Positions 2,891 to 49,545 of a stretch of 64,000 nt of DNA are shown in pieces. The translations under genes and the position numbers were made by a program. Under the pieces are notes generated by a model. That model searched no databases. It had not been told where the DNA came from and saw nothing but the letters and a program-made list of their open reading frames with translations. Location: contig JBBPFI010000001.1 in NCBI GenBank assembly GCA_037974965.1, positions 2,232,001 through 2,296,000 of the forward strand, given 5' to 3'. Positions within the stretch are counted from its first letter, which is position 1. Each line of letters opens with the position of its first letter. Origin of the DNA: Dacryopinax spathularia (Eukaryota > Basidiomycota > Dacrymycetes > Dacrymycetales > Dacrymycetaceae).

Positions 2891-4799
2891 ATGCCACCCG
2901 AGCCCGCCCGCCAGAAAGTGGCCATAATCGGCTCGGGCCTCGCAGGCCTCACCACCGCCCATCTCCTCCATTCCCACCCAAGCAAAGCCTACGAAGTCCA
3001 CATCTTCGAGCAGGTGCGACCCCGCCACCTCCTCCAACCCCACCCCCATTGCCTCTCCTTCCTTACGTTCCCTTTTCCCTCTCGCTGGAACGGGAGCTGA
3101 CCAAAGAGCAGGCAGAAGAAATAGGGATGGACTCCGCTTCTGTCCTCCTTCCTATCCTCGTCACCGGCCCAGAGGAAGGCAGGAAGCCCAGGAGTGAGAT
3201 GATGCATATCGACGTCCCTATGCGTTCTTTTCAGGGAGGGTACTATGCGCGCTTGATGAGGCTGTATGAGAGTTTGGGACTCAAGCCAGAGGCGAGGGAT
3301 TTCAGTTATTCCTTTTCCTACTTGCCTCTCTCTGTTCTCCGGTCGAAGGAGGCCGAGCTGGGGAAAGGAGAGAAGAGCGAGAACGCACTGAAGGCAAAGC
3401 CGCAGACAAGATTGCTGCATAACGGCTCCAACGGCCGGCGAGGTCTCTCCCTCCCTTCCTACCTCGCCCTCCCCCGCCCGAAATCCTGGACATCCCCAGA
3501 CGAGCTACCCAAATGCCTTCGCCTAGCAACGTTCAACCTCTCCACCCACCTCACGACCTGTCTCTGGCTCTTGCTGCTGAACGTCTACGTCCTCCTTCTC
3601 TCTTTTCCCCTGTTCCGCCCGGCTCCGCAGACGACCTTGGCGGAATGGTCCGCCCAGTCTAGGCCGAGTGGTTGGCTGGCACGGTGTTTGGGGGCGGACG
3701 AGCGGTGGGATAGGATGATGCATGAAGTGCTTGTTCCGCTTTTTTCGGCTGTGTGCACTTGTTCGGTGGGGGAGGTGTGGGCCTACCCGGCGGAGGAGAT
3801 CCTCGGTGCGCCTCTCTCTTTCTTCCATTCCATTCCGCTGATGGCTGATACATTTTCTTTTCTCCGGCAGAGTATATCTACCTTACAATCGGGACGCACC
3901 ACTACACCCTCCCCGGCGGCTCAGCCTCCGTAATCAGCGCAATAACCCACTCAATCCCAAAACGCCAGATCCACCTCTCCTGGCCCGTTAGTCGGCTAGA
4001 GCGGGACACTGAGACGGGGCTCGTGAGCGTGTGCAGCGGCGAGGGGAAAAGGGAAGAAGGGTTTGGGCATGTGGTTCTGGCTACTCAGGCGGGGTGTACG
4101 GCCGATTTGCTCGATACGCTTCTTTCCTCCTCCTCGAAGGCAGCACAAACGCCAAGCCAAGCAGGAGAAGAGGGAGAACAAGATGGCACGGAGGCGCTGA
4201 GAGCGCTACGCGACTGCGCCCGGCTCATCCCCCACTCCGAAGCAGAAGTGGTCACCCATTCCTTCGCCCCCATCCTCCCCCCCAACCCAGGCGATAGGAG
4301 AGACCTCGACCTCGTCTCATTCTCTTATTCACCCCCTTCCTCCTCCTCTTCCTCCAACTCTCCCCAGGGCCGGGAAGCGGCGGAGTACCCGATTCAGGCG
4401 ACCCACCTGATCCCCCTCCCCGCCCATACCCACCCGAGCCAGAAAGCGATCTTCCAGACGACGAACCCTCTCCCTCTTCCTGGCCTTTCGATACCCCAGA
4501 ACGAAATTATCAGCAGAACGCGCTTCCAGCGCGCCTTGGTCAGCGTGCGAGGAAAGAAGAGGGTAGAACGCGATCTGCTGCGGGTCGAGCGGAGTAGGGG
4601 CGGGAAGAGGGTTGTAGGACTGGGGTGGGCGCAGGGTGCGAGAGTTGGGGGGAAAAGGGAGAGGGAGGGGGAGGGGCAGGGGGAGGGAGCGGGGGTATGG
4701 GTCGTGGGGAGTTGGGCGGGGGGTGGGATCCCCTTGCTTGAAGGGTGTGTGAGGAGCGCGGAGGGCGTTGTGGGAGGTATACTAGAACAAGTACAATAA
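2891..4799 (+). CDS. FAD-dependent amine-oxidase-like oxidoreductase
   Basis: Three exons (2891-3013, 3112-3805, 3871-4799) give 581 residues. The N terminus carries a Rossmann dinucleotide-binding motif, VAIIGSGLAGLTTAHLL (G14-x-G16-x-x-G19), followed by an acidic beta-strand end (EVHIFEQ) that would hold the FAD ribose. The conserved GMDSAS and IDVPMRSFQGGYY stretches after the first intron are what I associate with the fungal branch of the COG2907-type NAD/FAD-binding proteins. A hydrophobic segment near residue 185 (LWLLLLNVYVLLLSF) may be membrane-associated. The C terminus has a glycine-rich GSWAGGGIPLLEGCVRSAE, typical of the second FAD contact. The frame is open upstream to about 2605 but the ATG at 2891 directly precedes the Rossmann fold. 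The substrate is unknown. A SAM methyltransferase follows on the same strand; in bacteria and fungi such oxidoreductases often sit next to fatty-acid-modifying methyltransferases, so a lipid role is an inference. Confidence 0.8.
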
Positions 4800-35348: not shown

Positions 35349-35790
35349 CTTGGTCGTCGGTAAGAGCCAAGGACGCACGGCCCAACGTATATGTAGGACA
35401 AAGAGGGGCGGAGAGGGGGTTCAACAATAATCACCGCAAGGGATATACGGAAGCCTAACAACGCCGAACCGAAGGCGCCCCTTATCACCGGTTCCGATGA
35501 TGACATCAAATCAGTGGCTATGCATCCCCACGTTCCAGTCTTGACTTTCCGCCACCTGTCCCCGGAGGCACGTTCACATTCCAGTCTTGCCGAACTCGGC
35601 ATCTTGCACCCTAGTCTGCACCGTTAAGGACTGCACATCCATTGTTGCAGGTCATATATCATAACATTGACCATTGTTATGATTATGCTTTCTCACCCCG
35701 AATGGATACTGTTTCGCCTTGCCCTGCTTCGTGCTTGCCCAGACTGCGCTCTCCGCTTCTTCTCGTTTGCTTCGACAGGCTGCGCCCAGC
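35349..35790. other. Intergenic, left flank of the MULE gene
   Basis: 442 bp between the nuclease promoter side and the first MULE exon found. A small inverted repeat (aacattgaccattgttatg, about 35662-35681) is present. No terminal inverted repeat matching the right side of the palindrome-rich block was found by eye. Confidence 0.3.
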
Positions 35791-36432
35791 ATGATCTCTC
35801 GTGGCGACTTTACACAAGATTTGCAAAGTGGTTCCTATACCCATATATGGGACAGCATGGAAGACTTTAACATATGGAAGGAAGAAGAACAACGAACCGA
35901 GCTGATTCAATTTGGAAAGCGTAACGTCAAGTGTGGCCCAAAGGAGAGCAAAAGTGGGCAGTCTGGGTACCTGGAGAGACGCACTTGGGTCTGCACGCGA
36001 GAGGGGACTGGGGGGGTTAAGGCATATACAAAGAAGCATCCAGAGTAGAACCGAAAGGTTACAAGCAAGAGGGTGCGCAGCCTGGTTCTTCTTAATCCCA
36101 CCCAGCTGATTCTGTTGTCTAGACAGGCTGCAAATGTGTCCTCATCACGAAAACGTATCCCGGCACGCCTAAAGTCCTTGGGCGCTACCATGCCGTCCAT
36201 TCCCACTTAATCGGAGATCCCAATGCCCCCTACGTTAGGCTGTCCCAGCAGACCAGAACGTACATTGAAGAGTTGCTCCGTTTGAAGGTGGAGCCTCGGG
36301 AAATCTTGCGCAAGATCCATGGTGACGCCTATGACCTTCATCAGACTGTTATGGTTGAGCGAAACCACTTTGTCACCATGCATGATATTAAGAGAATGCA
36401 GGTGCGTGCACTGCACTGTACAGACTGCGCAG

Positions 36433-36437
36433 CCTGC
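36433..36437 (+). repeat. Target site duplication CCTGC (left copy)
   Basis: CCTGC directly precedes the 5' LTR and is repeated at 43708-43712 after the 3' LTR, as expected for a Ty3/Gypsy integrase. Confidence 0.9.
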
Positions 36438-37151
36438 TGTCAGGGGACGTACCTTTTTCGGCCTTGGAGCCTAGCCCCTTCCTTGCTTCCATGCCTTCCC
36501 GAACACCTGGTCATCGGATTCCCTGGTTATCTCCACCGATCTATCGGGATTAGCACTATCCCCGGTGCCGCTCAGGAACCAAGAAGCATGGTCGGCACAA
36601 TGACGCGCCGCACATACTGTTTCAACCCCTGACGCCGCCCATGCCCTTGTGGCCGCTCCTGCCATTGTGGCCACCGATCACTAGCTTCTCTGCCTTACCG
36701 CCGTCGTAGCATGGGGTACCCCGCCATCACCGCCGATGCCAAGGTCCTGGGCCACCGGCAACTGGCAACCACCGGTGCATTCCATGGGCCGCCGGTACCT
36801 TCCGGAATACTGGAGCGCAGCCTCGTAGTAAGTGACGCTTACTCATCGAGCGCAGCCTCGGTCCTAGTATATGCCGGCACCTTCCGCCATAGGGCGTAGC
36901 CACACCTCTGGATTATGCCGGTAGGTTCTCTAGGCAGGCGCTGCCACAGTTACTGTAGGGTATAAATAGACGGCCTGTAAGGCCTAAGGCTCCTCAGATC
37001 CGGTCTCTGAGGATTTCCACCACTGTAACTCCTAGGCACTCGATCTCACTATCCACTCTACTCTTATCCTCTACACCCTCTACTCTACTCCAATCGCTAT
37101 CCTGTCTCTCTGTCACCCGCAGTAGCCTTGTTATTGTGGTGTGCCCTCACA
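36438..37151 (+). repeat. 5' LTR, 714 bp
   Basis: Starts TGTCAGGGGACG, ends CCCTCACA. A TATA box (gtataaatag) is at about 36959-36968, followed by the probable transcript start region. Two half copies of the palindrome (GCGCAGCCT) are present near 36822 and 36850. Confidence 0.95.
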
Positions 37152-37153
37152 GA

Positions 37154-37164
37154 AGACCGGATCT
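37154..37164 (+). promoter_or_regulatory. Putative primer-binding site for self-priming
   Basis: AGACCGGATCT, starting 2 nt after the LTR, is the exact reverse complement of AGATCCGGTCT at 36996-37006 in the LTR, about 30 nt downstream of the TATA box. This is the arrangement used by Tf1/sushi-type elements, in which the 5' end of the mRNA primes reverse transcription in place of a tRNA. No tRNA-like primer site was seen. Confidence 0.65.
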
Positions 37165-37218
37165 CTCAACAACAACCCTACTGCACCACTCGACTCAACT
37201 CAACAACCACCAACACAC

Positions 37219-38343
37219 ATGACGACTCCTACACCCACTGCTGCTGCTGATCCTGCGGTGACCCAGGGCACTGTCCCAGTCGCTCCAGCATTCGCAGCAA
37301 GCGCTACCATTCCACCTAACCCGGCACAACAACTGTCAACCCTTACGGAAACGCTGGAAGCACTACAGGCACGCATTGCCCAGCTGGAAGGCAACCCAAC
37401 GACCACTCGGGAACCTCGCGTGGCAACCCCAGACGTCTTCGATGGCAATCGTGCCAAGGCAGCCACCTTCCTACGCCAGCTGCACCTGTACTTCCATGCA
37501 CGCCCATCGGAATTTCCAACCCCACGGGAGCGCATCATCTTTGCACTCTCCTACATGAGGGGAGGCACGGCAGGCACTTGGGCAGATCGGGTAGCCATGT
37601 ACAACTTGGACCCCAACCCTGATCACCCGGAGGCGCTTGTCTACACCACCTGGGAGGCCTTCAAGGACGCCTTCGACAAAGCCTTTGTCGACCCCAACCC
37701 AGAAGGCTCTGCACGTTTTCGCATGGAGCACCTCAGCCAAGGGACCAAGACCGCTGATGAGTACATCGCTGCCTTTCAAGAACTGGTCCCATGCACCGGC
37801 TACAACGATGTTGCCCATATCGAAAGGTTCGAGCGTGGCCTCAACCGCACCTTGGCCAGCAAGATATACGCACTGCCCGAAATGCCTACAACTCTGGATG
37901 GGTGGTACAAGTATGCACTTCGTTTCGACCACCAGCAGCGCAAGCTGGATGCTCGTAAACCAGTTACTGGCCAACCCGTGCGGTTCACTCGTACCTTCAA
38001 CCGCCCTTTCAACCTGAACTCCCCTGCACCTCGACCTGCGCCACCGCCACGTCCAGCCAGCCCTCCTCTGCACCCTGGAGAGCCCATGGACATCGACTCC
38101 AATCGTCGCGCTGGTCGCAGGATCACCTGCTACAATTGTGGCCAACCAGGACACATCAGCCGTAACTGCCCCAAGCCTCGTCAGGCTCGTATTCGTGCAG
38201 CCGACAATACCATGGAGCCTGGACCACTTGATGCAGAGGCTGTCAAGGCCATCCTGCGAGAAGAGATTGGCAAGATCCTCTTGCAGAACAAGGCCCTTCC
38301 TGGGCCACCCAAGGAGGATGAATCGACCAAGGAGGATTTTTGA
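37219..38343 (+). CDS. gag: Retrotransposon Gag with CCHC zinc knuckle
   Basis: 374 residues from the first ATG after the LTR. A Thr/Ala/Pro-rich N terminus and a coiled coil (LTETLEALQARIAQLE) precede the Ty3-type capsid domain (FDGNRAKAATFLRQLHLYF, TWADRVAMY). A Pro-rich linker leads to a zinc knuckle CYNCGQPGHISRNC starting near residue 304. The gene ends GAT TTT TGA, where a -1 slip on TTT would enter the pol frame. Confidence 0.92.
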   Translation: MTTPTPTAAADPAVTQGTVPVAPAFAASATIPPNPAQQLSTLTETLEALQARIAQLEGNPTTTREPRVATPDVFDGNRAKAATFLRQLHLYFHARPSEFPTPRERIIFALSYMRGGTAGTWADRVAMYNLDPNPDHPEALVYTTWEAFKDAFDKAFVDPNPEGSARFRMEHLSQGTKTADEYIAAFQELVPCTGYNDVAHIERFERGLNRTLASKIYALPEMPTTLDGWYKYALRFDHQQRKLDARKPVTGQPVRFTRTFNRPFNLNSPAPRPAPPPRPASPPLHPGEPMDIDSNRRAGRRITCYNCGQPGHISRNCPKPRQARIRAADNTMEPGPLDAEAVKAILREEIGKILLQNKALPGPPKEDESTKEDF

Positions 38344-41300
38344 AACGGTCGACCAAGAAGGACACATTGCGTTCGACCAATCGTTATGCAGTACTGGCTC
38401 AACCCACAATAGGCACTTCATTCGATACACCTGATAATGATGATGCCATTATGCCCATGAGCCAGGCTGCTACTGTGTCCAAACCCTCCTCGGCAGAAGA
38501 TTCACCTCTACCCCGCAAGATCTACATCCGATCTGCCTCTCTCCCTCGATCCACAGAACTCCACCTCGGTTTACGCGCATTGGACTCAGGTGAATACTTC
38601 ACCACCTCCGCACTCCTTGATTCAGGAGCAACGGGAATGTTTATCGACTCGGAATATGTCAAGCTACGCAACCTCACCACATGACGCCTACCCAGGGCAG
38701 TACCCGTCTACAATATCGATGGCACCCTAAACGAGAGTGGCTCCATTCGAGAAGAGGTAGACCTCATCATGAAGTTCCAAGAACACACAGAGCGTACCAC
38801 CTTCCAGGTCACCAATCTGGGCCACCATACGGTTATTGTGGGGCATACCTGGCTGCGGCACCACAACCCTGAAATCAACTGGGCTACCGGACAAGTTAGC
38901 ATGTCTCGTTGCCCACCCCAATGCAAGGCCGGAGCCAGCACCACCCTTCAGCAGCGTCCGTTGACTCCCTCTACACAGGCGGTCTTCGCGCTGGACACCA
39001 CTGAAGCAGAAGAGGCCCCAGAGCCCTCGCTCCCAAACCTGGCCAAGGGTGATCGCCTCCTCGTGGCCTGGCTGCCACCTCTACCCCAAGCTATTCGAGC
39101 CACTGAAACTGCCTCTACCCGACTGGCTGCAGAAGAGGCCAAGCACCACCAGCAAGAAGAAAGTTTTGAAGCCCTGGTCCCACGCGAATATCAAGACTAC
39201 CGCGATGTCTTCTCCAAGGAATCCTTTGATGAACTGCCCCAGCACCGCCCATGGGACCATGCCATCGAGCTGAAGCCTGGCTCAGAACCCAAGGGCTCCC
39301 GAGTCTACCCATTATCCCTGGATGAGCAAAAGGAACTGGACGAGTTCCTGCGAGAGAACCTGGCCACTGGCCGCATCCGACCCTCGAAATCACCCATGGC
39401 GGCCCCTGTCTTTTTTGTCAAGAAGAAGGATGGCCGACTACGCCTTGTACAAGACTACCGGAAACTCAATGAGATGACCATCAAGAACCGGTACCCAATA
39501 CCGCTGATCTCCGACCTGGTCAACCAGCTGCGCCATGCCCGATTCTTCACCAAGCTGGACATACGCTGGGGATACAACAACATCCGCATCAAGGAGGGCG
39601 ATGAGTGGAAGGCAGCCTTTCGAACCAACCGTGGCCTGTTTGAGCCGTTAGTGATGTTCTTTGGACTCACTAACAGCCCAAGCACCTTCCAGACCATGAT
39701 GAATGACATCTTCCGGGATCTGATTGATGCAGGACGCATTGTCGTCTACCTAGATGACATCCTCATCTTTTCAGAAACCCTAGAAGAACATCGCCAGACG
39801 GTTCGTGACGTGCTGGAAGTCTTGCGACAGCACAAGCTCTACCTTCAACCCTCCAAGTGCGAATTCCACAAGGAGACCATTGAATACCTGGGTCTGATCA
39901 TTGGAAGAGGCACCGTCGCCATGGATCCCGTCAAGGTGGAAGGCATCTCTAAGTGGCCAACCCCTACAAATGTCACAGAAGTCCAATCATTCATTGGATT
40001 CTGTAACTTCTATCGTCGTTTCATCCGGGACTTCTCCACCATTGCACGACCACTGCATGACCTCACCAAGAAGGAGACCACCTTTGTCTGGGGACCGAAA
40101 CAGCAAGAGGCCTTTGACCACCTCAAGCGCGCGATTACCTCTCACCCCGTCTTGGCCTTCCCAAATGAAGACAGGCCTTTTCGGGTTGAAGCAGACAGCT
40201 CAGACTATGCCACAGGGGCTGAGCTCTCGCAGCTGGGGGATGATGGCAAATGGCATCCCATTGCGTTCATGTCCAAGAGCCTCTCACCGACGGAGCGCAA
40301 TTATGACATCCACGACAAGGAGCTCCTCGCCATCATTCGTGCTTTAGAGGAGTGGAGACACTTCCTGGAGGGGGCCAAGCATCAATTCGAGATCTACACC
40401 GACCATCAGAACCTCAAGTACTTCACCACGGCTCAGAAACTCACCAGGCGACAAGCACGATGGTCGTTATTCCTCTCGCGATTCGACTTTGTCTTGATCC
40501 ATCGGGCAGGAAAGCAGAGCGGCAAGCCAGATGCCCTCTCGAGACGAGCGGACCATAAGAAGGGGGAGAGCGACAACCAAGACCAAATTTTGCTTCGTCC
40601 TCAATGGTTCAAGATTGCCGCTGCCCAACGTGGTCACACGCTCATCAACGGATCTGAACGTGACCTGCTTCGTGAAATTCGAAACTGCAAGGACCAAGAT
40701 GAAGCAGTCGTCAAAGCGATTGCAGAGCTGAAGCAAGGAGCCACCAACCGCCTCATTGGCTCGGAATGGGCAGAAGAATCAGGACTTATCCTCTTCAGAG
40801 GAAAGGTCTATGTGCCCAAGAACGACCATCTGCGAACCAAGATCGTACGACTCCACCATGATACACCAATTGCAGGCCACCCTGGACGATGGAAAACCCT
40901 CGAATTGGTCTCTCGGAATTACTGGTGGCCCAACATCAGTCGCTTCGTAGGCCGCTATGTCGCCACCTGCCATGCCTGCAACCGAACCAAAGTCTACCCC
41001 CAAGCACCAGCTGGCAGTCTCATGCCCAACCGAATCCCTACCAGGCGATGGCAATGCGTCACCACTGATCTGATCACTTCCCTGCCTCCATCCCAGGGCT
41101 ACGACGCTATCTTTGTAGTCGTTGATCGACTCACAAAGCAGGCCCACTTTGCACCAACTCAGAACGAAGTCTCTTCAATGGGTATTGCTCGGCTCTTTCG
41201 GGACCATGTCTGGCGATATCATGGCCTCCCAGAGGAAGTTATCAGTGATCGGGGCACCCAATACGTCTCAGCCTTCATGCGAGAGCTCAATACCCTGCTT

Positions 41301-42233
41301 GGCATCAAGACCTCTGCCTCAAGCGCCTATCACCCACAGACAGATGGTCAGACAGAGAGGGTCAATCAGGAGATAGAGCAGTACCTCCGCCTCTTTGTCA
41401 ACTATCGTCAGGATGACTGGGTGGAGTGGCTGCCGCTTGCAGAATTTGCCTACAACAACCGCATCCAGGCCTCGACACGCATGTCACCCTTCATGGCCAA
41501 CTATGGACAGAACCCTCGCATGGGCACAGAGCCCCCACGTGACTCGCCTATTGAAGGGGTCAATGACTTCCTGGAGCGCATGAGCAAGCTGCAAGATGAG
41601 TGTGCAGCCGCCCTGAAGCAAGCAGCTGAGGATATGGCACGGTTCTATGACAGTCACCATGGGCCTACTCCCTCTTACAAACCAGGCGATAAGGTCTGGC
41701 TGGACTCGCACAACATCAAGACAACTCGCCCAGCCAAGAAACTGGATGACAAGTGGTTTGGTCCCTTTGAAGTCCAGGAGAGGGTCAATCCCAATGCCTA
41801 TCGACTCAAGCTCCCGACCAGCTTCCTGATACACCCGGTCTTTCATGTCAGCAAGCTCCGTCCATATCAGGAAAGCGACCTGCCAGGACGACATCAAGAG
41901 AAGCGACCACCACCAGCAGTCATTGAAGATGGAGTTCCCCAATGGGAGCTAGAGCGGATTGATGACAGTCGCCTATGGCGTGGAAAACTGGAGTACCTGG
42001 TCAAGTGGAAGGGATACCCCAACTCGGAGCGCACTTGGGAACCGGAAGCTCAGCTTCGTGAAGACGCACCCAAGGCTGTCAGGGAGTTCCATGCCAGGCA
42101 CCCCTCTGCTCCATCCCGCATTTCAGCCCTATCCTTCGACCGACTCCCTTTTCGGCAACTGGAGAACTTCACAGAATCGCCCAAGAAGGTCTTGTTCGAC
42201 TGGACTCAAGGCCGCCTATCGCCACAGCTCTGA
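38340..42233 (+). pseudogene. pol: Retrotransposon Pol: PR, RT, RNase H, integrase, chromodomain; one in-frame stop
   Basis: The frame lies -1 relative to gag. Domains in order: aspartic protease (LLDSGATGMFID), reverse transcriptase (TKLDIRWGYNN, VYLDDILIF), RNase H (IHDKELLAI), integrase with an HHCC finger (HHDTPIAGHPGR...CHACNRTK) and DDE residues (TTDLI, ISDRGTQY, TDGQTERVNQE), and a C-terminal chromodomain (YLVKWKGYPNSERTWEPE). A TGA at 38682-38684 interrupts the frame between protease and reverse transcriptase; the codon looks like a single-base change from an Arg codon. The rest is open for 1184 codons. This places the element among chromodomain Ty3/Gypsy elements, which use histone marks for targeting. 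Confidence 0.92.
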
Positions 42234-42993
42234 TTCCTGCCTCAACTACAGCACCAGTAGTTATCAAGCAGGCAGAACAGACAGCAGGAAAAGCCCTCCA
42301 CCCGCACGCACTGGCGACACTGCAGCTTACAGCTCAGACATCGCTCCCATGCCCATCCCAACCGACCTTCCTCCAGAAACCAACCCACAGCCCATTGCAC
42401 CCCCGGACGCAGGCGACCAACATCGATATCCCCCAAGTGCTTCCATCGCTTGGGCACCTGTCGCTTCAGTCTTGGCCGCACCCCTCCAAGACTGGCCAAG
42501 ACCCTAGTCAAGGGTGAGATCCAGCTCAACGGACGCTGGAGATCCAGCACGTACTCGGGACGACATGGGCCACATTCACTCCACGGGTCCCTCAGGCAAC
42601 AGAAGAGGCAACTTGGCCACTCAGGAAGCCGCACACACTCCTTCCATCCTACCACGCAGTGGCGACATCAACTCAACCCCTCCTGCGTCTCTCCCCTTGC
42701 CAAAAACCGCCCTATTACCAGCTGCAACCAGGCCGTGTTTGGCAGCCGTGCCAACACCACCTGAGATCGTTCCTTCCAATGCAGGGGCGCCAGCGAGCAG
42801 CAAGAGGAGGAGGGGACTAGACGGCCAGTCAGAAGCTGAGCAAGACAGACGAGGGGTACGCACCCATGTCCATGGTGGTCAAGAGGACAAGAGGTGTCAA
42901 GACCCAACTGGCCGAGACACAGTCACCGACTGCTTATCAACACTGCCACCACCGCCACGTGCTCTGGGACATAGCACCTTGAGGGGGGGGTGA
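42234..42993 (+). other. Retrotransposon 3' spacer and polypurine tract
   Basis: 760 bp between the pol stop and the 3' LTR. Two Pro/Ser-rich open frames exist but neither resembles a known third ORF. It ends in the polypurine tract. Confidence 0.5.
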
Positions 42994-43707
42994 TGTCAGG
43001 GGACGTACCTTTTTCGGCCTTGGAGCCTAGCCCCTTCCTTGCTTCCATGCCTTCCCGAACACCTGGTCATCGGATTCCCTGGTTATCTCCACCGATCTAT
43101 CGGGATTAGCACTATCCCCGGTGCCGCTCAGGAACCAAGAAGCATGGTCGGCACAATGACGCGCCGCACATACTGTTTCAACCCCTGACGCCGCCCATGC
43201 CCTTGTGGCCGCTCCTGCCATTGTGGCCACCGATCACTAGCTTCTCTGCCTTACCGCCGTCGTAGCATGGGGTACCCCGCCATCACCGCCGATGCCAAGG
43301 TCCTGGGCCACCGGCAACTGGCAACCACCGGTGCATTCCATGGGCCGCCGGTACCTTCCGGAATACTGGAGCGCAGCCTCGTAGTAAGTGACGCTTACTC
43401 ATCGAGCGCAGCCTCGGTCCTAGTATATGCCGGCACCTTCCGCCATAGGGCGTAGCCACACCTCTGGATTATGCCGGTAGGTTCTCTAGGCAGGCGCTGC
43501 CACAGTTACTGTAGGGTATAAATAGACGGCCTGTAAGGCCTAAGGCTCCTCAGATCCGGTCTCTGAGGATTTCCACCACTGTAACTCCTAGGCACTCGAT
43601 CTCACTATCCACTCTACTCTTATCCTCTACACCCTCTACTCTACTCCAATCGCTATCCTGTCTCTCTGTCACCCGCAGTAGCCTTGTTATTGTGGTGTGC
43701 CCTCACA
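42994..43707 (+). repeat. 3' LTR, 714 bp
   Basis: Same length as the 5' LTR and no difference was noticed on reading. Followed by the second target-site copy CCTGC at 43708-43712. Confidence 0.95.
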
Positions 43708-45439
43708 CCTGCTGATTTGCAGCCTTGGGATTCAGCTGGCCATCCGTGCCGAAGAAGTTCGACTTGGTCCAACGGATGATACCTCCACTCAAAAATGGGT
43801 GGAAATGCTTCGCCGCCGGAACTCTCTTTTGGGCGTCAAGCTTGTCAATGAGGCTGCGCCTCCCCAATCGTATCTGGAACAAGGCTCGATGTTTATTGCT
43901 ATTCAAACCCCATGGCAGCGGCAAATCTTCTCTGAAATAGGCGGGAACGTTATGTGTATTGATGACACCCACAATGTGACCCAGTATTACAAGGTCACCC
44001 TCTTCACATTACTGTGTCGAGATCATTGGGGCCACGGTACGTAGCACATGCAATTGGCTAGGCTGCACATCCTCACCAATGTGCAGGTATCCCGGTCGCC
44101 TGGCTTTTGACCTCCAATGGAGAAGCACTCACCCTGCGATACTGGCTCCAGCTGTTCCGACAATCAAACAGCACCATCCCTCGCTATGTTATGACAGACA
44201 AGAATCAAGCCCAAATCTCAGCAATTCACGCAGCCTATCCATCTGCCACAGTTCTTCTTTGCTGGTGGCATGTGCTCCATGCATGGCAACAGCACCTTCG
44301 AATCGTCGATCATCCCGATCTCTGGCAGCTATTGAAGCAATGGATCCGTGTCCATGATCCGGTGGAGTTTCAGGCGCACTGGCAAAGGATTGCTGCCTTG
44401 GCCCCTCCCAAATTTCGTGAATACCTCATTCACAGTTGGTCTGGGGATCAGGCAATGTGGTCCGCTATGAATCGCCAAAACCGCCATGTCTTTGAAGAAG
44501 TGCACACCAATATGCTCATTGAAGCGTAAGTCCACTCTGGTCCAGGCTGCGCTTCGCCTGCTGAGCCTGTCTGCATGCAGTTGGCACCATGTCCTGAAGA
44601 CCACGTTTCTGCGGGGAGCAAGGAATCGACGGATGGATGACCTTCTCCACACCCTGACGACGGACGTGGCTGCGCATTATGCTCTGCAGCACCGAAGACA
44701 AGAAGGGGGTTTTGAAGGGCTCAACATTGAAGCCCAAGCCCGCCTCAATGCTGAAACCGCCGGGGCCAAGATCCCACGGGCACATCTCACCTGCCAAAGT
44801 GCTGATGCATATACCGTCCAATCGCAGACCGATTCCACCCATACATACATCGTTGACATGCTTCTTGGCACATGCGAGTGCGCAGCCTGGCCGCGGCTCA
44901 AGTTCTGCAAACATATGGCTGCAGTGGACCATCACTTCCTGGAGTGCTGCCAGGCTGCGACTCTTTGGGCGCAGCCTCCCCCAACCTCTCGGCTCAAAGA
45001 GAAGCCAGTCGAGCTGGTGGCGGAACAAAGCGAGGACCTTCAGGCACCCTCTGCTACGATGGTCCAAGTCCCCCTGGCCAATCGAGTCCTGGTCCGTGCG
45101 CAGGAGCTGTGCAAACGGCTGCAACAAGCAGGCTGCGCTCCTGCTCAATTTGCCAGTGACCTCACCAAACTCCTTGGGTCGATGGATGCACTGCTGGCAC
45201 AAGCCATTGAGGCTGCGCCCATCCCTCCTTTGTTGCCGGAGAAGGTTAAGCTCCCACCTAATATATCAAGCGCTGCGGAAACAGCCAAAACCTTGCCTCA
45301 TCGCAAGAAGAGGTTGCGGCAGGCTGCGCAGCCTTATGCAGGGCGCACGACGTGTAGCAAGGTTGTAGTCGCGGCAGTCAAATGATCAATACTATTCCAT
45401 TGAAACTGTACAAGTACAAACGAGGCTCATGAGGCTGCG

Positions 45440-48147
45440 CTACACATTGCCAATCTTGAAGAATTCAGTCACAATCCAGGAAGGCCGGCCACGCCAGTAG
45501 CCATCGGCACGGGTGGATCCCTGCACTGTCATGGTGTACTTGTGACGCATGACACGCTCGAGGTTGTGTGTGTGGATGGGGCGGTAACCTTCATTGTTCT
45601 CGAAGAGGTCGAGCATCGTTGTGGCAGAGAGGCCCAAAATCGACTCAGCTGCAGTATTGAAACTCGTGGCACGTTCCCGCTCGCCCTCTTCATCGACCAA
45701 CCAGAAATGAAGGCAGTACCTAGGTTGTGCAGCCTCAGTCACAGACAGGTTGCGCAGCCTGAGAAGACACTTACTTTGGAACTGGCACCATGAAGCTTTG
45801 TCGGCAGATGGGGCAGTGGTACAAGTTATCCACACCTCGATCAGCCAAAGTCATCTTGCGGTTGCATGTGCGAGTGGCGCAGCCTTGATAAGCGACACTC
45901 TTCTCGACATTGATCTCGATGGTCCCAGATATACGGAAAGTGCGTGGAACAGGCTGCGCGTCCAGCTTTTCCTCATGCACTTGAGTGATCGTCCGAATGG
46001 GCGGCAGTGTGGTGAGCTGGCGCTGGGCAATGGCCTTTGCGCCATCCGCACTGCAGGCTGCGCTGAGCAAGTGCCACTGAGCCGGATCATCCTTCGCAGC
46101 CTCCCACCTGCAATGAAGGTCAGCGCAGCCTACAAGAAACAACAATGGGAGCCCACGCACCACTGAGACAACGTGTCATACCCGGGGATGTCGTCCCCCC
46201 AGAAAATCTCAGTATGTCGGGCATCAGTCTTGACTGAGAGACCACGAGAGGTGTCCACCAGCACGTTGTGGAAGAGGGCAATAGTGCCATCTGTGCCCTC
46301 AAGTTCGGGCCAGAACTCATCAAAGGCGACGAGTCGCACTACACTGCCCGTCTCGTCAACGAGCCACATATCCACTCGAGTACTTGGTGCACCATGCGCA
46401 AAGTTCTACAAGACACTGTGAGGCTGCGCAGCCTTTGCCTTATATGAACTCCACTTACAAAGCGGCCTGTGCTCTTCCCCTTCCCAAACATGACCTCACT
46501 GGTATTGGCGATCACACAAGCAATATCTGAAGCAACCGTCAACTTGGGCAGGTTGCGCAGCCTTAAATGGGCACATACCAACAGGCTTGCGGTCTGGCAC
46601 ACTGGGCAGCTGCACAATCTTGCGCAAGTTGAAGTGTCGCATTGGGATGGATCGATCCCCAGGAACCTAACCAGCTGTGTCATGAGCAAACGTTCACTGG
46701 GTGTGCAGGCTGTGCTTACATTGACAAACTCGGCAGTGGCTTCCACAAAGTCCAGCTGTGCCGGATGGAAGGACCGGCAGTAGATCTGCACAGCGCCAAT
46801 GGCATTCACATTGTGGATCTCATATACCTATTCCACAATCAGGATGCGCAGCCTCCATGACATTGAGTCAGACTCACCTCGCCTTCTTCAAGTTGCGCAG
46901 CCTTACCCATGAGCTTCTTGCGAACGACAAGATCGATTTGGGCGGTGTTGTCATGCAACACAACATCAACAGTCCAGCGTTTGCGTTCGATGCGAGTGAC
47001 ACGGCCCCGGATGTGCAGGCTGCGCAGCCTTTTGAGCTTACAACCTAAGCAAATGGAAGAGAATGCACATACCCACGAGAATTGGCGACAATATCACGGA
47101 TCGGAGTGAAGGAGGGGATTCGGCCCCAGCCTGGAGGGTGGAAAGGCAAGGCTGGAGGCTGCGCTTCCACACCAGGGACTCGGTCTGGATGGGTGGCATA
47201 ATGCTGGACTGCCCATGATTGGAGGGGTGCATCGGCCGGGAACTCCAGATCGACCTCGGGTTCAACTGGGGGAGGTGGACGGGCAGTGAGCGGGGGGGAG
47301 CGCGCAATCAGTGCAGGAGGCACGGCTCCCAAACCGGGCAGGACAACGGTGGTGGGTTGTCCCTGTCCACCCGTCCCAAGACGTTGCGCAGGCTTGGGCG
47401 ATTGGGACTCAACCTTGACAGAGAAGACACCCTGGGGAGCCCAATCAGATGGGCGACTAGTGGTCGCTGGGGAGGGAGAGGGAGTCTGCGCAGCCTTGGG
47501 CTTGATAGGGGACGGAGAGGGAGCCTGCGCAGCCTTGGGCTTGATGATGATGGTTTGGTGGATGACCTTGGGGGGGGTCGTTGGTGAGGAAGGCTGCGCA
47601 GCCTCATCATTGTCAAGGGAGTGGAGATAGCCTTCGAATGGAGAGTTGACGTTCGACCAGTTGGCATAAAGGAGGGGATGGCCGATCTTGGCTGTGCGAC
47701 CTTGGATGCGCTCCAGGTCCCAAGCAATGAGGGATATACTATGGGCCAGTCAGTGATGTTCAGGCTGCGCTACACTTGCAGACGCACCCAGCACCATATC
47801 CCGACACCCATCGCTCCATGTCCCTCAGCTGCACAATGTCGTACACCTCGAACTCATCCTGGCGCAACCTCTGTGCCAAAGCAGGGCCAGACACAACTTG
47901 GTTCACGTAGGTAACACTATCACTGAGAGTCAGGCTGTGCAGCCTGTCAGAGAATGCGCATGCTTGAGGGGCAGACGACTTACTGGAAATAAGGAGGGTC
48001 AAATGGCTCGCCGTCAGGGTCAAGTTCCTCATAAAAGTCGATGAGCTGAACACGCCCATTGCCATTGCCAGACACATGAGCGCGTATGAGGCCGTCCAGA
48101 ACACCAATGTCTAAGTTAAGCGGCGGATTGACTAAGGGGTTAGCCAT
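45440..48147 (-). CDS. RPA1-like large subunit of replication protein A
   Basis: Ten exons (48147-47984, 47934-47788, 47738-47073, 47019-46878, 46827-46720, 46666-46579, 46526-46459, 46405-46161, 46107-45775, 45719-45440) give 746 residues. The N-terminal OB fold carries LTLSDSVTYVNQVVSGPALAQ. A long Pro/Ala linker, partly encoded by palindrome copies (KAAQ, EAAQP), leads to DBD-A/B (RGRVTRIERKRWTVDVVLHD, VDMWLVDETGSVVRLVAFDE) and to DBD-C with the zinc site C-ATRT-C...C-PI-C near residues 618-643 and a C-terminal fold ending at IVTEFFKIGNV. RPA binds single-stranded DNA in replication and repair. The frame is intact. It is longer than human RPA1 (616). It could be the host gene or a copy carried by the neighbouring MULE; every intron holds the palindrome, and the acceptors of introns 1 and 3 lie within it (GGCTGCGCAG|CCT). 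Confidence 0.85.
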
Positions 48148-48262
48148 GGATGGCGGCTGATAGAGTGGGGATGACGATGAGACAAGGGGAGAGATCGGCG
48201 ATCAATGACAGCAAGGCTAAAGGGGGTGGCGCAGCCTCGGACACTATTTGGAGGCAGAGGGC
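48148..48262. promoter_or_regulatory. Short divergent promoter, RPA1-like and methyltransferase genes
   Basis: Only 115 bp between the two start codons. It contains the last half copy of the palindrome (GCGCAGCCT at about 48228). Confidence 0.5.
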
Positions 48263-49545
48263 ATGCCTGACGGAGGCATCTCAGGCATGGGTGGCGGAAA
48301 GTACGCAAGTCCCACGTTCCATGAATTCCGATACCGACCGGCAACGTCCCTTCCACCATCCCTTGTTGTCCTCCTCCAAGAGGGTTGGCCGGCCATAATG
48401 GCGGCTCTCGCGCCGTCCATTGTCAACCTCCCGCCTGGGTCGGAGAGGGTGACGGATGCGGATGAGGAGGTGTTCTTGCTTTATTCTTTGCTTGCCTCGG
48501 CATCTCCGACTGGCGACGAGAAGGAGTCTGGACTGGGGTTCGTGGATTCAAAGAAGCGGGAGATTACGGTGGCTTTCGATATTGTCCCTCCTCAAGATGC
48601 AATGCCAACCGCTGTATCTGAGGGCAGCTTGGCGAAGGGAAGAAGCAAGGATAAACGAAACCGAAGGCGGTCGAGCGGGAAGATGGATCTGCTTGAGGGG
48701 AAGCATGTAGAAGTGACTCTCGCTCAAGATCTGAGCGGGCTTAAGAACCGGAAGGGCGACACAGGTCAGCGCTGTTCTTGTTTGTGTTCTCTCATATGGC
48801 TAATGTAGTCAATACAGGGAGCGTCCTATGGAGAGCGAGGTAGACCTGCTCCTCTCCTCCCCAAGTCCCCAAATAACATCTCGTCAGCATACACCTCGCC
48901 CACCTCCTCCTCCAGCAACATTACTACCCACCTCCATCCCCGCTCAATCCACTACTGGACTCCACCCTCCTCCCAAAAGCCCACATCCTCGAACTAGGCA
49001 GCGGCACAGGCCTGCTCTCCCTCCTCCTCTCCCCACTCGTGCGCAAATACACAGCAACCGACGTACCCGCCTTGCTGCCCTTACTACGGAAAAACACCGC
49101 CTCCAACGGCCTGGCCGAGAAAGTGCAAGTTGAGGAGCTCGATTGGGTCGTCCTTGAAGGGCTCAGTGAGGAGAGGAGAAAACGATATTTCCCGCTTGAA
49201 GACCCTCCGGATCTCGTGTTGGCCGTCGATTGTCTGTACAACCCCTCGCTACTCCGCCCATTTCTGGCTACGTTGTGTTACCTCTCTCGTGCTTCTCTCT
49301 GCCGAGCCTCGGACGCATCCTCATCTGGTACGGGAAACGAACCGGAGGTAAGCCACGGGCCGGCGGTACTGGTCATGTCGGAGCTTCGCGATCCCGAAGT
49401 AATGCGCGAGTTCCTGGCTCTGTGGCTCCAGCTGGATCGGGAGGAAGGTGAGGAGAGTGGGTGGGAGATATGGAGGGCTGGAGAGGGGCTGGTGGAGGGG
49501 ACGAGATGCGTGATCTGGGTCGGATGGAGTAAGAGGCGGGGTTGA
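48263..49545 (+). CDS. Family-16 (METTL21/Efm-like) protein lysine methyltransferase
   Basis: Three exons (48263-48764, 48818-48839, 48888-49545) give 393 residues. The middle exon is only 22 nt; it encodes GSVLWRAS, the conserved W-x-(A/S) block of this family, and is needed to keep the frame. Exon 3 gives LELGSGTGLLSLLL (SAM motif I), TATDVPALLPLLRKN and VDCLYNPSL, the D-x-x-Y post-motif typical of METTL21-type protein methyltransferases that modify elongation factors and chaperones. The N-terminal 150 residues are not conserved as far as I can tell. The substrate is unknown. Confidence 0.83.

Follow-up and report, generated by a model that had tools for sequence, protein, structure and literature searches.

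Family-specific palindrome arrays in transposons of Dacryopinax spathularia that carry RPA1-like genes: putative self-marking sites of a Mutator-like element and Helitrons

We analysed a 64,000-nucleotide stretch of the basidiomycete Dacryopinax spathularia (GenBank assembly GCA_037974965.1, contig JBBPFI010000001.1; here the window, C1:2232001-2296000; the whole assembly, 29.2 Mb in 24 contigs, was used for genome-wide counts), in which copies of a 14-bp palindrome, AGGCTGCGCAGCCT, are dispersed over a transposase gene and a convergent gene for a protein like RPA1. A reading of the letters alone (the sequence-only reading) had described two adjacent genes; they proved to be parts of one transposon, a Mutator-like element (MULE) bounded by short terminal inverted repeats and 9-bp target-site duplications. 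Genome searches with each MULE end led to just three places, i.e., the window copy, C2 94006-~99486, and C2 ~1456048-~1461530, and in comparison with the window the two sister copies are 97-98% (C2:94.0-99.5 kb) and 74-88% (C2:1456.0-1461.5 kb) identical. MULE target duplications are about 9 bp long; they measure 9 bp in all three copies and differ in the sister copies (TCCTTCCTT and TCTCCGATT). The terminal repeats are short, imperfect, and unlike the palindrome.

The transposase was recognised by PF10551 (MULE transposase; E=6e-14 on the open sister copy), which also exceeds its cut-off on the window copy, and the protein has 62 matches, the named ones all basidiomycete, with the best from Calocera cornea (51% over 59% of the query) and many from Mycena. 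Its frame is open only in the C2:1456k copy; in the window it is broken by a TAG codon (36046-36048) and by a retrotransposon in intron 2. By its frames, read by eye, this retrotransposon is Ty3-like; its long terminal repeats (LTRs) are identical over 714 bp, and its insertion is therefore young. Its target-site duplication, CCTGC (36433-43712 with the duplications), overlaps the end of a palindrome copy. The RPA1-like gene is open in all three copies according to the gene model. PF08646 (Rep_fac-A_C, DBD-C) matches the MULE protein at E=9e-15 and exceeds its cut-off in all three proteins scanned; the Rep-A_N and OB-fold Pfam models match below their cut-offs only, and the protein aligns with RPA70 chains in PDB, best with 4gnx. 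No relatives of the RPA1-like protein reached the cut-off in protein databases, where only the ~8,000 most word-sharing candidates were scored, so that absence is not established, and none were found in scans of viral contigs. Nine introns had been proposed for this gene, of which seven are clear and two (46672-46716 and 46543-46578) are doubtful because their lengths are multiples of three and they are open; our two gene-model scripts differ at one acceptor, and the first adds an extra intron in sister copy C2b. The copy at C2:1456048-1461534 appears to be a mosaic, its RPA1-like half being ~96-98% and its transposase half ~72-74% identical to the other copies, a pattern that suggests recent exchange or conversion.

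Allowing up to three mismatches, we counted 29 matches of AGGCTGCGCAGCCT in the window where 4.35 would be expected (sd 2.2; 100 dinucleotide shuffles, maximum 10), so the enrichment noted from the letters alone is real. The MULE's own DNA, with the retrotransposon set aside, holds 23 of these, and the remaining six lie at 3914, 29233, 31985, 38661 (inside the retrotransposon), 50682, and 59456. Likewise, half-sites (the 8-mers AGGCTGCG/CGCAGCCT) number 34 in 5,490 bp of MULE DNA versus 8 in the remaining 58,530 bp of the window, and a weight matrix detects 32 sites in the uninterrupted sister copy C2a. An earlier figure of more than 30 copies thus holds for half-sites and weight-matrix sites, but not for 14-mers with up to three mismatches; the four perfect copies lie exactly where they had been placed (Table 1). 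Genome-wide, the exact palindrome occurs at 17 places, 16 of them within the three MULE copies, and in the 16 kb around the lone perfect site at C4:2003831 no motif word is among the top over-represented 8-mers. The sites occur in introns, exons, and intergenic DNA. All 13 introns (12 in the window plus the one split by the retrotransposon, taken from sister copies) contain a match with up to four mismatches when 6 bp on each side are included, as had been claimed, compared with 4.1% of 5,000 random 62-bp host stretches. Half-site density reaches 26.4/kb in introns versus 4.9/kb in exons (copy C2b, the two doubtful RPA1-like introns being treated as exon), a difference that weaker coding constraint in introns would produce. 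Two splice acceptors had been placed inside the palindrome: this is clear at 47020, whereas at 47935/47944 an alternative acceptor exists. In the regions scanned, the tandem repeats holding sites amount to one two-copy repeat for the MULE and a few short repeats for Helitron A (see below).

Table 1. Features of the MULE copy and its palindrome sites (window positions)
Feature	Position	Strand	Remarks
Left target-site duplication	35527..35535		9 bp, CCCACGTTC; repeated at 48311-48319
Left terminal inverted repeat	35536..35556	+	CAGTCTTGACTTTCCGCCACC; inner 13 bp as at right end
Whole MULE copy	35536..48310		5,505 bp own DNA plus 7,270-bp retrotransposon
MULE transposase gene	35791..45385	+	gene structure (5 exons, 4 introns) taken from the homologous open sister copy
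Palindrome, 1 mismatch	36070..36083		donor of MULE intron 1
Palindrome, 1 mismatch	36422..36435		MULE intron 2
LTR retrotransposon	36438..43707	+	in MULE intron 2 beside a palindrome; outside the array
Palindrome, 3 mismatches	43851..43864		MULE exon
Palindrome, 2 mismatches	44060..44073		MULE intron 3
Palindrome, 3 mismatches	44875..44888		MULE exon
Palindrome, perfect	45321..45334		MULE exon
RPA1-like gene	45440..48147	-	781-784 aa by gene model; 7 clear and 2 doubtful introns
Palindrome, 2 mismatches	45722..45735		RPA1-like intron
Palindrome, 1 mismatch	45747..45760		RPA1-like intron
Palindrome, 3 mismatches	45951..45964		RPA1-like exon
Palindrome, 3 mismatches	46089..46102		RPA1-like exon
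Palindrome, 3 mismatches	46118..46131		RPA1-like intron
Palindrome, perfect	46421..46434		RPA1-like intron
Palindrome, 1 mismatch	46550..46563		doubtful RPA1-like intron
Palindrome, 1 mismatch	46841..46854		RPA1-like intron
Palindrome, 2 mismatches	46890..46903		RPA1-like exon
Palindrome, perfect	47017..47030		across acceptor of RPA1-like intron 47072-47020
Palindrome, 3 mismatches	47156..47169		RPA1-like exon
Palindrome, 3 mismatches	47381..47394		RPA1-like exon
Palindrome, 1 mismatch	47483..47496		RPA1-like exon, in 39-bp two-copy tandem repeat
Palindrome, 1 mismatch	47522..47535		RPA1-like exon, in the 39-bp tandem repeat shared with the 47483 site
Palindrome, perfect	47591..47604		RPA1-like exon
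Palindrome, 1 mismatch	47932..47945		acceptor of first RPA1-like intron
Palindrome, 3 mismatches	48224..48237		between RPA1-like start and right element end
Right terminal inverted repeat	48290..48310	-	
Right target-site duplication	48311..48319		9 bp, CCCACGTTC

A genome search with the RPA1-like protein revealed paralogs at nine further places, and we compared the surroundings of eight of them (all but C9:169k). Six of the eight (C1:462k, C8:1154k, C2:2207k, C4:650k, C12:302k, and C1:1690k) are saturated with a palindrome centred on TGCGCA, and Helitron Rep genes accompany all six or lie no more than 7-8 kb away. The C2:2.2M, C4, C12, and C1:1.69M loci were reached through the protein alone, without the motif; the protein search and the motif search each pointed to C1:0.46M and C8. 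The six form three families, i.e., Helitron A (C1 and C8), in which Rep (PF14214) and PIF1-type helicase domains were found, Helitron B (C2, C4, and C12), and Helitron C (C1:1.69 Mb); in B and C, PF14214 Rep matches lie 7-8 kb from the RPA1-like matches. A PIF1-like frame was seen by eye in L060; no helicase was seen for Helitron C. Some N-terminal exons in the Helitron B gene models are unreliable, and one model was trimmed before the protein scans. The RPA1-like protein is the only gene product that we recognised, by reading frames, in both the MULE and the Helitrons. A tree built from the RPA region common to these proteins joins the MULE protein to Helitron A (95/95); four of its six inner branches are left open, and long rows belong to the host, C5, and the MULE. 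Of the palindromes, too, those of the MULE and Helitron A are the most similar, so that, on this one comparison, the closest proteins have the closest palindromes. Helitrons A and B were seen by eye to share a small extra gene between the helicase and RPA1-like genes (C1:461022-461837, C8:1156288-1157051, and C2:2203930-2204460), which was not seen in the MULE; the Helitron A version matched no Pfam family above cut-off. Altogether, Helitron Rep domains were detected at 45 places in the genome, often within open frames of ~2,000 codons, making this a Helitron-rich genome for 29 Mb.

The four families have the core TGCGCA in common, and each has arms of its own: AGGY next to 51 of 90 cores in the MULE (two copies pooled), AGCY next to 136 of 316 in Helitron A, KTCY next to 104 of 240 in Helitron B, and ACNN, which is loosely defined and has a chance expectation of 1/16, next to 35 of 46 in Helitron C. 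Each class is found at 2 of 74 background cores, and the classes barely overlap between families, except for MULE-type arms at 47 of 316 Helitron A cores. TGCGCA itself occurs at 4.0-7.2/kb in eight element copies or parts (two of the MULE, two of Helitron A, three of B, and one of C), the uninterrupted MULE copies having 4.0 and 4.2/kb, against 0.34/kb in other sequence of the same genome (37 in 110,262 bp). The host RPA1 locus (C2:1635k, recognised from its reading frames) is sparse, with 5 TGCGCA in 8 kb, and another MULE (C2:1441k), the single control locus of its kind, has none in 3.3 kb. Exact Helitron-A-type sites occur at 27 places in the genome, 24 of them inside elements; Helitron C is the weakest case of such concentration. 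A Helitron-C-type palindrome at C1:2133891, near another Helitron Rep (C1:2129452), and a pair at C10:594604-594923 possibly mark further copies of this family.

The sites have mostly been retained between diverged copies, unlike their flanks. More specifically, the core is intact at 67 of 80 sites between the Helitron A copies (82% overall identity; controls, 35-45%), in Helitron B at 26 and at 27 of the 36 sites available for alignment (62-66% identity; controls, 9-13%), and at four of five sites in the diverged half of the MULE (controls, 10-19%). MULE half-sites were kept in 11 of 15 cases versus 11% in the control (a perfect palindrome counting as two half-sites). The right MULE half (96% identical; core 15/18 versus 80-83%) is uninformative on selection because its copies are too similar. 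Sites in alignment gaps of >=30 were dropped, which left 36 of 39 in the C2 copy of Helitron B and 80 of 80 in Helitron A. In the Rep/helicase frames of Helitron A, four-fold synonymous positions are identical at 86 of 87 places within sites versus 660 of 818 outside (p=2e-4 for the core and p=2e-3 for the arms), and the codon GCG is identical in 21 of 22 cases inside sites versus 11 of 22 outside. These uninterrupted frames carry 37 sites in 2,036 codons, read unevenly (PAQA-type 23, SLRR-type 9, and ACAG-type 5), as if the DNA motif were imposed and the protein took whichever frame it could bear. That the sites function at the DNA level is thus well supported.

As for the mode of reading, the arms of the 160 Helitron A sites vary independently, and complementary pairs fall below the shuffle means at all five positions. 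Absence of arm covariation in this largest set fits recognition of the duplex by a dimer better than a hairpin, and on balance we consider the sites to be read in this way. Site counts exceed those of first-order Markov shuffles, and weight-matrix sites have a mean spacing of about 116-168 bp, which would correspond to one site per nucleosome-sized stretch. In the six Helitron copies this spacing is more even than chance (coefficient of variation 0.51-0.64 versus 0.85-0.88 expected, p<=0.002); as copies within a family share positions, these represent about three independent tests. A 10-bp helical phase in the spacings is at most marginal.

We propose, with a probability of roughly 0.45, that the arrays are element-wide binding sites for the element's own RPA1-like protein that mark the transposon as self and may counter silencing. 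The palindromes would be duplex sites for a two-fold symmetric (dimeric) protein, distributed over the element as a mark of "self", and each family would have its own version. The element-encoded RPA1-like protein is the likely reader: its identity as the binder we consider probable, with odds modestly better than even, the link being based on the MULE and six saturated Helitron loci, against which stands a single transposon-like exception (C5). By analogy with VANC, a plant transposon protein considered below, the bound protein could coat the element and oppose host silencing in a family-specific manner; we hold this function tentatively, as possible but somewhat short of an even chance. DDE and rolling-circle elements share the system, which extends over the whole element and is missing from the MULE terminal repeats; this speaks against a part in the transposition reaction and for a need common to all transposons, such as expression or escape from silencing. 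As to origin, a similarly tentative scenario is that an RPA1 paralog became a sequence-specific duplex-DNA "self" marker and moved between MULE and Helitron as a portable module, that the DNA it entered, coding sequence included, gained spaced palindromes, and that the families then diverged to a private code, in which nearly non-overlapping palindromes would keep each family's protein on its own DNA.

Several observations weigh against this proposal. RPA is known to bind single strands, and Pfam scans recognised no sequence-specific duplex-binding domain in the RPA1-like protein. The RPA1-like locus at C5:448051, with a Helitron Rep ~10 kb away, is without the palindrome in the 4 kb read (C5:446001-450000); a few overlapping words, e.g., CCAGTTC and CAGTTCT, were observed there. 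Exact Helitron-C-type sites (GACNNTGCGCANNGTC) fall outside the known element at 9 of 14 places and inside at 5, and the 12-bp centre of the MULE palindrome, with one mismatch allowed, has 224 genome places versus 139 for a reversed control. Sites in the two MULE copies are spaced no more evenly than expected by chance (p 0.27-0.39), and two of 20 covariation tests reached p<0.01 (MULE -3/+3, p=0.001, 23 sites; Helitron B -2/+2, p=0.004, 120 sites). The CpG ratio is depleted in the MULE copies (0.70-0.72) as in the retrotransposon (0.68), compared with 0.94-1.00 in host DNA, which allows for no more than partial protection from methylation. Finally, the evidence comes from just four families of one genome, and copies belonging to the same family are not independent of each other; some 38 of the 45 Helitron Rep loci and 12 further MULE loci above the cut-off lie outside the comparison, and transposon controls without RPA are very few.

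Recognition by a host-encoded transcription or chromatin regulator, recruited for expression of the elements while the RPA1-like gene is an unrelated passenger, is unlikely but deserves to be taken seriously, since conservation, duplex reading, and spacing would suit any symmetric DNA-binding protein and TGCGCA is common to the four families. However, four arm classes alongside diverged RPA1-like proteins are hard to explain by one host factor, and the host sequence read, including the host RPA1 locus, shows no enrichment. A role in transposition itself, with the sites as transposase-binding sites or internal enhancers for finding and synapsing the element, appears improbable. The sites are concentrated in transposons, and those of Helitron A (454704-465690) cover nearly all of the span over which its copies are similar (454545-465786), yet the terminal repeats do not resemble the palindrome, and DDE MULEs and Rep/PIF1 Helitrons have the system in common. 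A transposase is unlikely as the binder because MULE and Helitron transposases are unrelated and because the nearest full site is >500 bp from one MULE end (the left; it is 66-69 bp from the right).

Hairpins, each with a stem and a GCGC loop, formed in single-stranded intermediates and loaded or protected by the RPA1-like protein, are more doubtful again. RPA does bind single strands, Helitrons move via single strands, every site can be drawn in this form, and the two covariation signals are of the kind expected; against this, complementary pairs in the Helitron A sites stay under their shuffle means, and single-strand movement is not expected of a MULE. We think it very improbable that the sites are targets of a host silencing factor, retained for the benefit of the host. 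CpG depletion of the MULE to the level of the retrotransposon would agree with silencing, but elements should lose such sites, whereas these conserve them even at synonymous positions and have a version per family. The sequence-only reading had suggested that a transposase or a silencing factor binds the palindromes; that they are binding sites is supported by duplex recognition and strong conservation, while neither named binder is likely.

A self-spreading short palindrome, in the manner of GC clusters or double-hairpin elements, was also suggested earlier and would account for many copies of one short palindrome, but it is scarcely credible: positions are mostly the same in diverged copies, of 252 site instances just 2 occupy a 10-40 nt insertion by themselves, in place of the clean insertions such an element would leave, and exact copies are not dispersed over the genome. 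Composition, coding repeats, or a splice-signal bias, to which the many introns with the motif, sometimes at the acceptor, had pointed, can be set aside, as the sites exceed dinucleotide and first-order Markov shuffles, persist at synonymous positions, and occupy uninterrupted Rep/helicase codons. The splicing-linked motif that the sequence-only reading had offered as its third idea finds no support either, given the 37 sites in those uninterrupted Helitron frames. Two further candidates were ruled out, i.e., concentration of sites at both element ends, by the distance of the first full MULE site from the left end, and, as far as exact sites go, a host-wide motif, by their concentration in elements and the rarity of the core in the other sequence read.

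If the self-marking proposal is correct, transposon self-recognition, known from plant VANDALs (PMC5735166), would have arisen independently in a second kingdom on the basis of a different protein, an RPA1 paralog, and the system would cross the boundary between cut-and-paste and rolling-circle elements. It would also imply DNA-level selection of such strength that the coding sequences of transposition proteins are shaped by it. The four natural pairs of protein and motif in one genome offer a resource for learning how an RPA-type protein could read duplex DNA.

Among known systems, TnpA of En/Spm binds repeated 12-bp subterminal motifs and affects methylation. It resembles the present case as a transposon-encoded protein with many short motifs, but its motifs lie near the ends, while here they extend over the whole element. 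No prior description of such palindrome arrays was found among the titles and abstract openings listed from the open-licence literature. Plant Helitrons carrying RPA (PHRPA; PMC4683698) likewise combine a Helitron with an RPA1-like gene; the word palindrome is absent from the main text of that paper, and here an RPA1-like gene is also present in a MULE. As for fungi, the RepHel frames of Pleurotus Helitrons yielded no RPA (PMC4289320), and Fusarium Helitrons yielded none either (PMC5148889). TET/JBP genes, as described in passages of one study, have spread across unrelated fungal transposon superfamilies, including Helitrons, and are thought to counter silencing (PMC12730594), so that accessory genes do cross superfamilies in fungi; their product differs in being a dioxygenase, those passages report no motif array, and the main text leaves RPA unmentioned.

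The closest likeness is to VANC of the Arabidopsis VANDALs, an element-encoded protein that binds short motifs and causes loss of methylation (PMC5735166). Both cases involve a MULE-type transposon with an accessory protein, motifs that are dense in their own family and rare elsewhere, related families with different motifs, and high motif density in introns and intergenic DNA (PMC5735166; PMC10398659). Density within the own family and difference between families were both found here, less clearly for Helitron C. VANC motifs are non-palindromic, often tandem, and mainly non-coding, whereas those described here are palindromic, dispersed, present in exons, and, in Helitrons, evenly spaced. Moreover, the accessory protein, known here from sequence alone, is RPA1-like rather than VANC (when the MULE transposase and the RPA1-like proteins were scanned against Pfam, neither DUF1985 nor DUF287, the VANC domains, appeared), and the system is common to a MULE and Helitrons, unlike that of the VANDALs. 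By this analogy, the arrays may represent VANC-like recognition achieved with a different protein and a palindromic motif.

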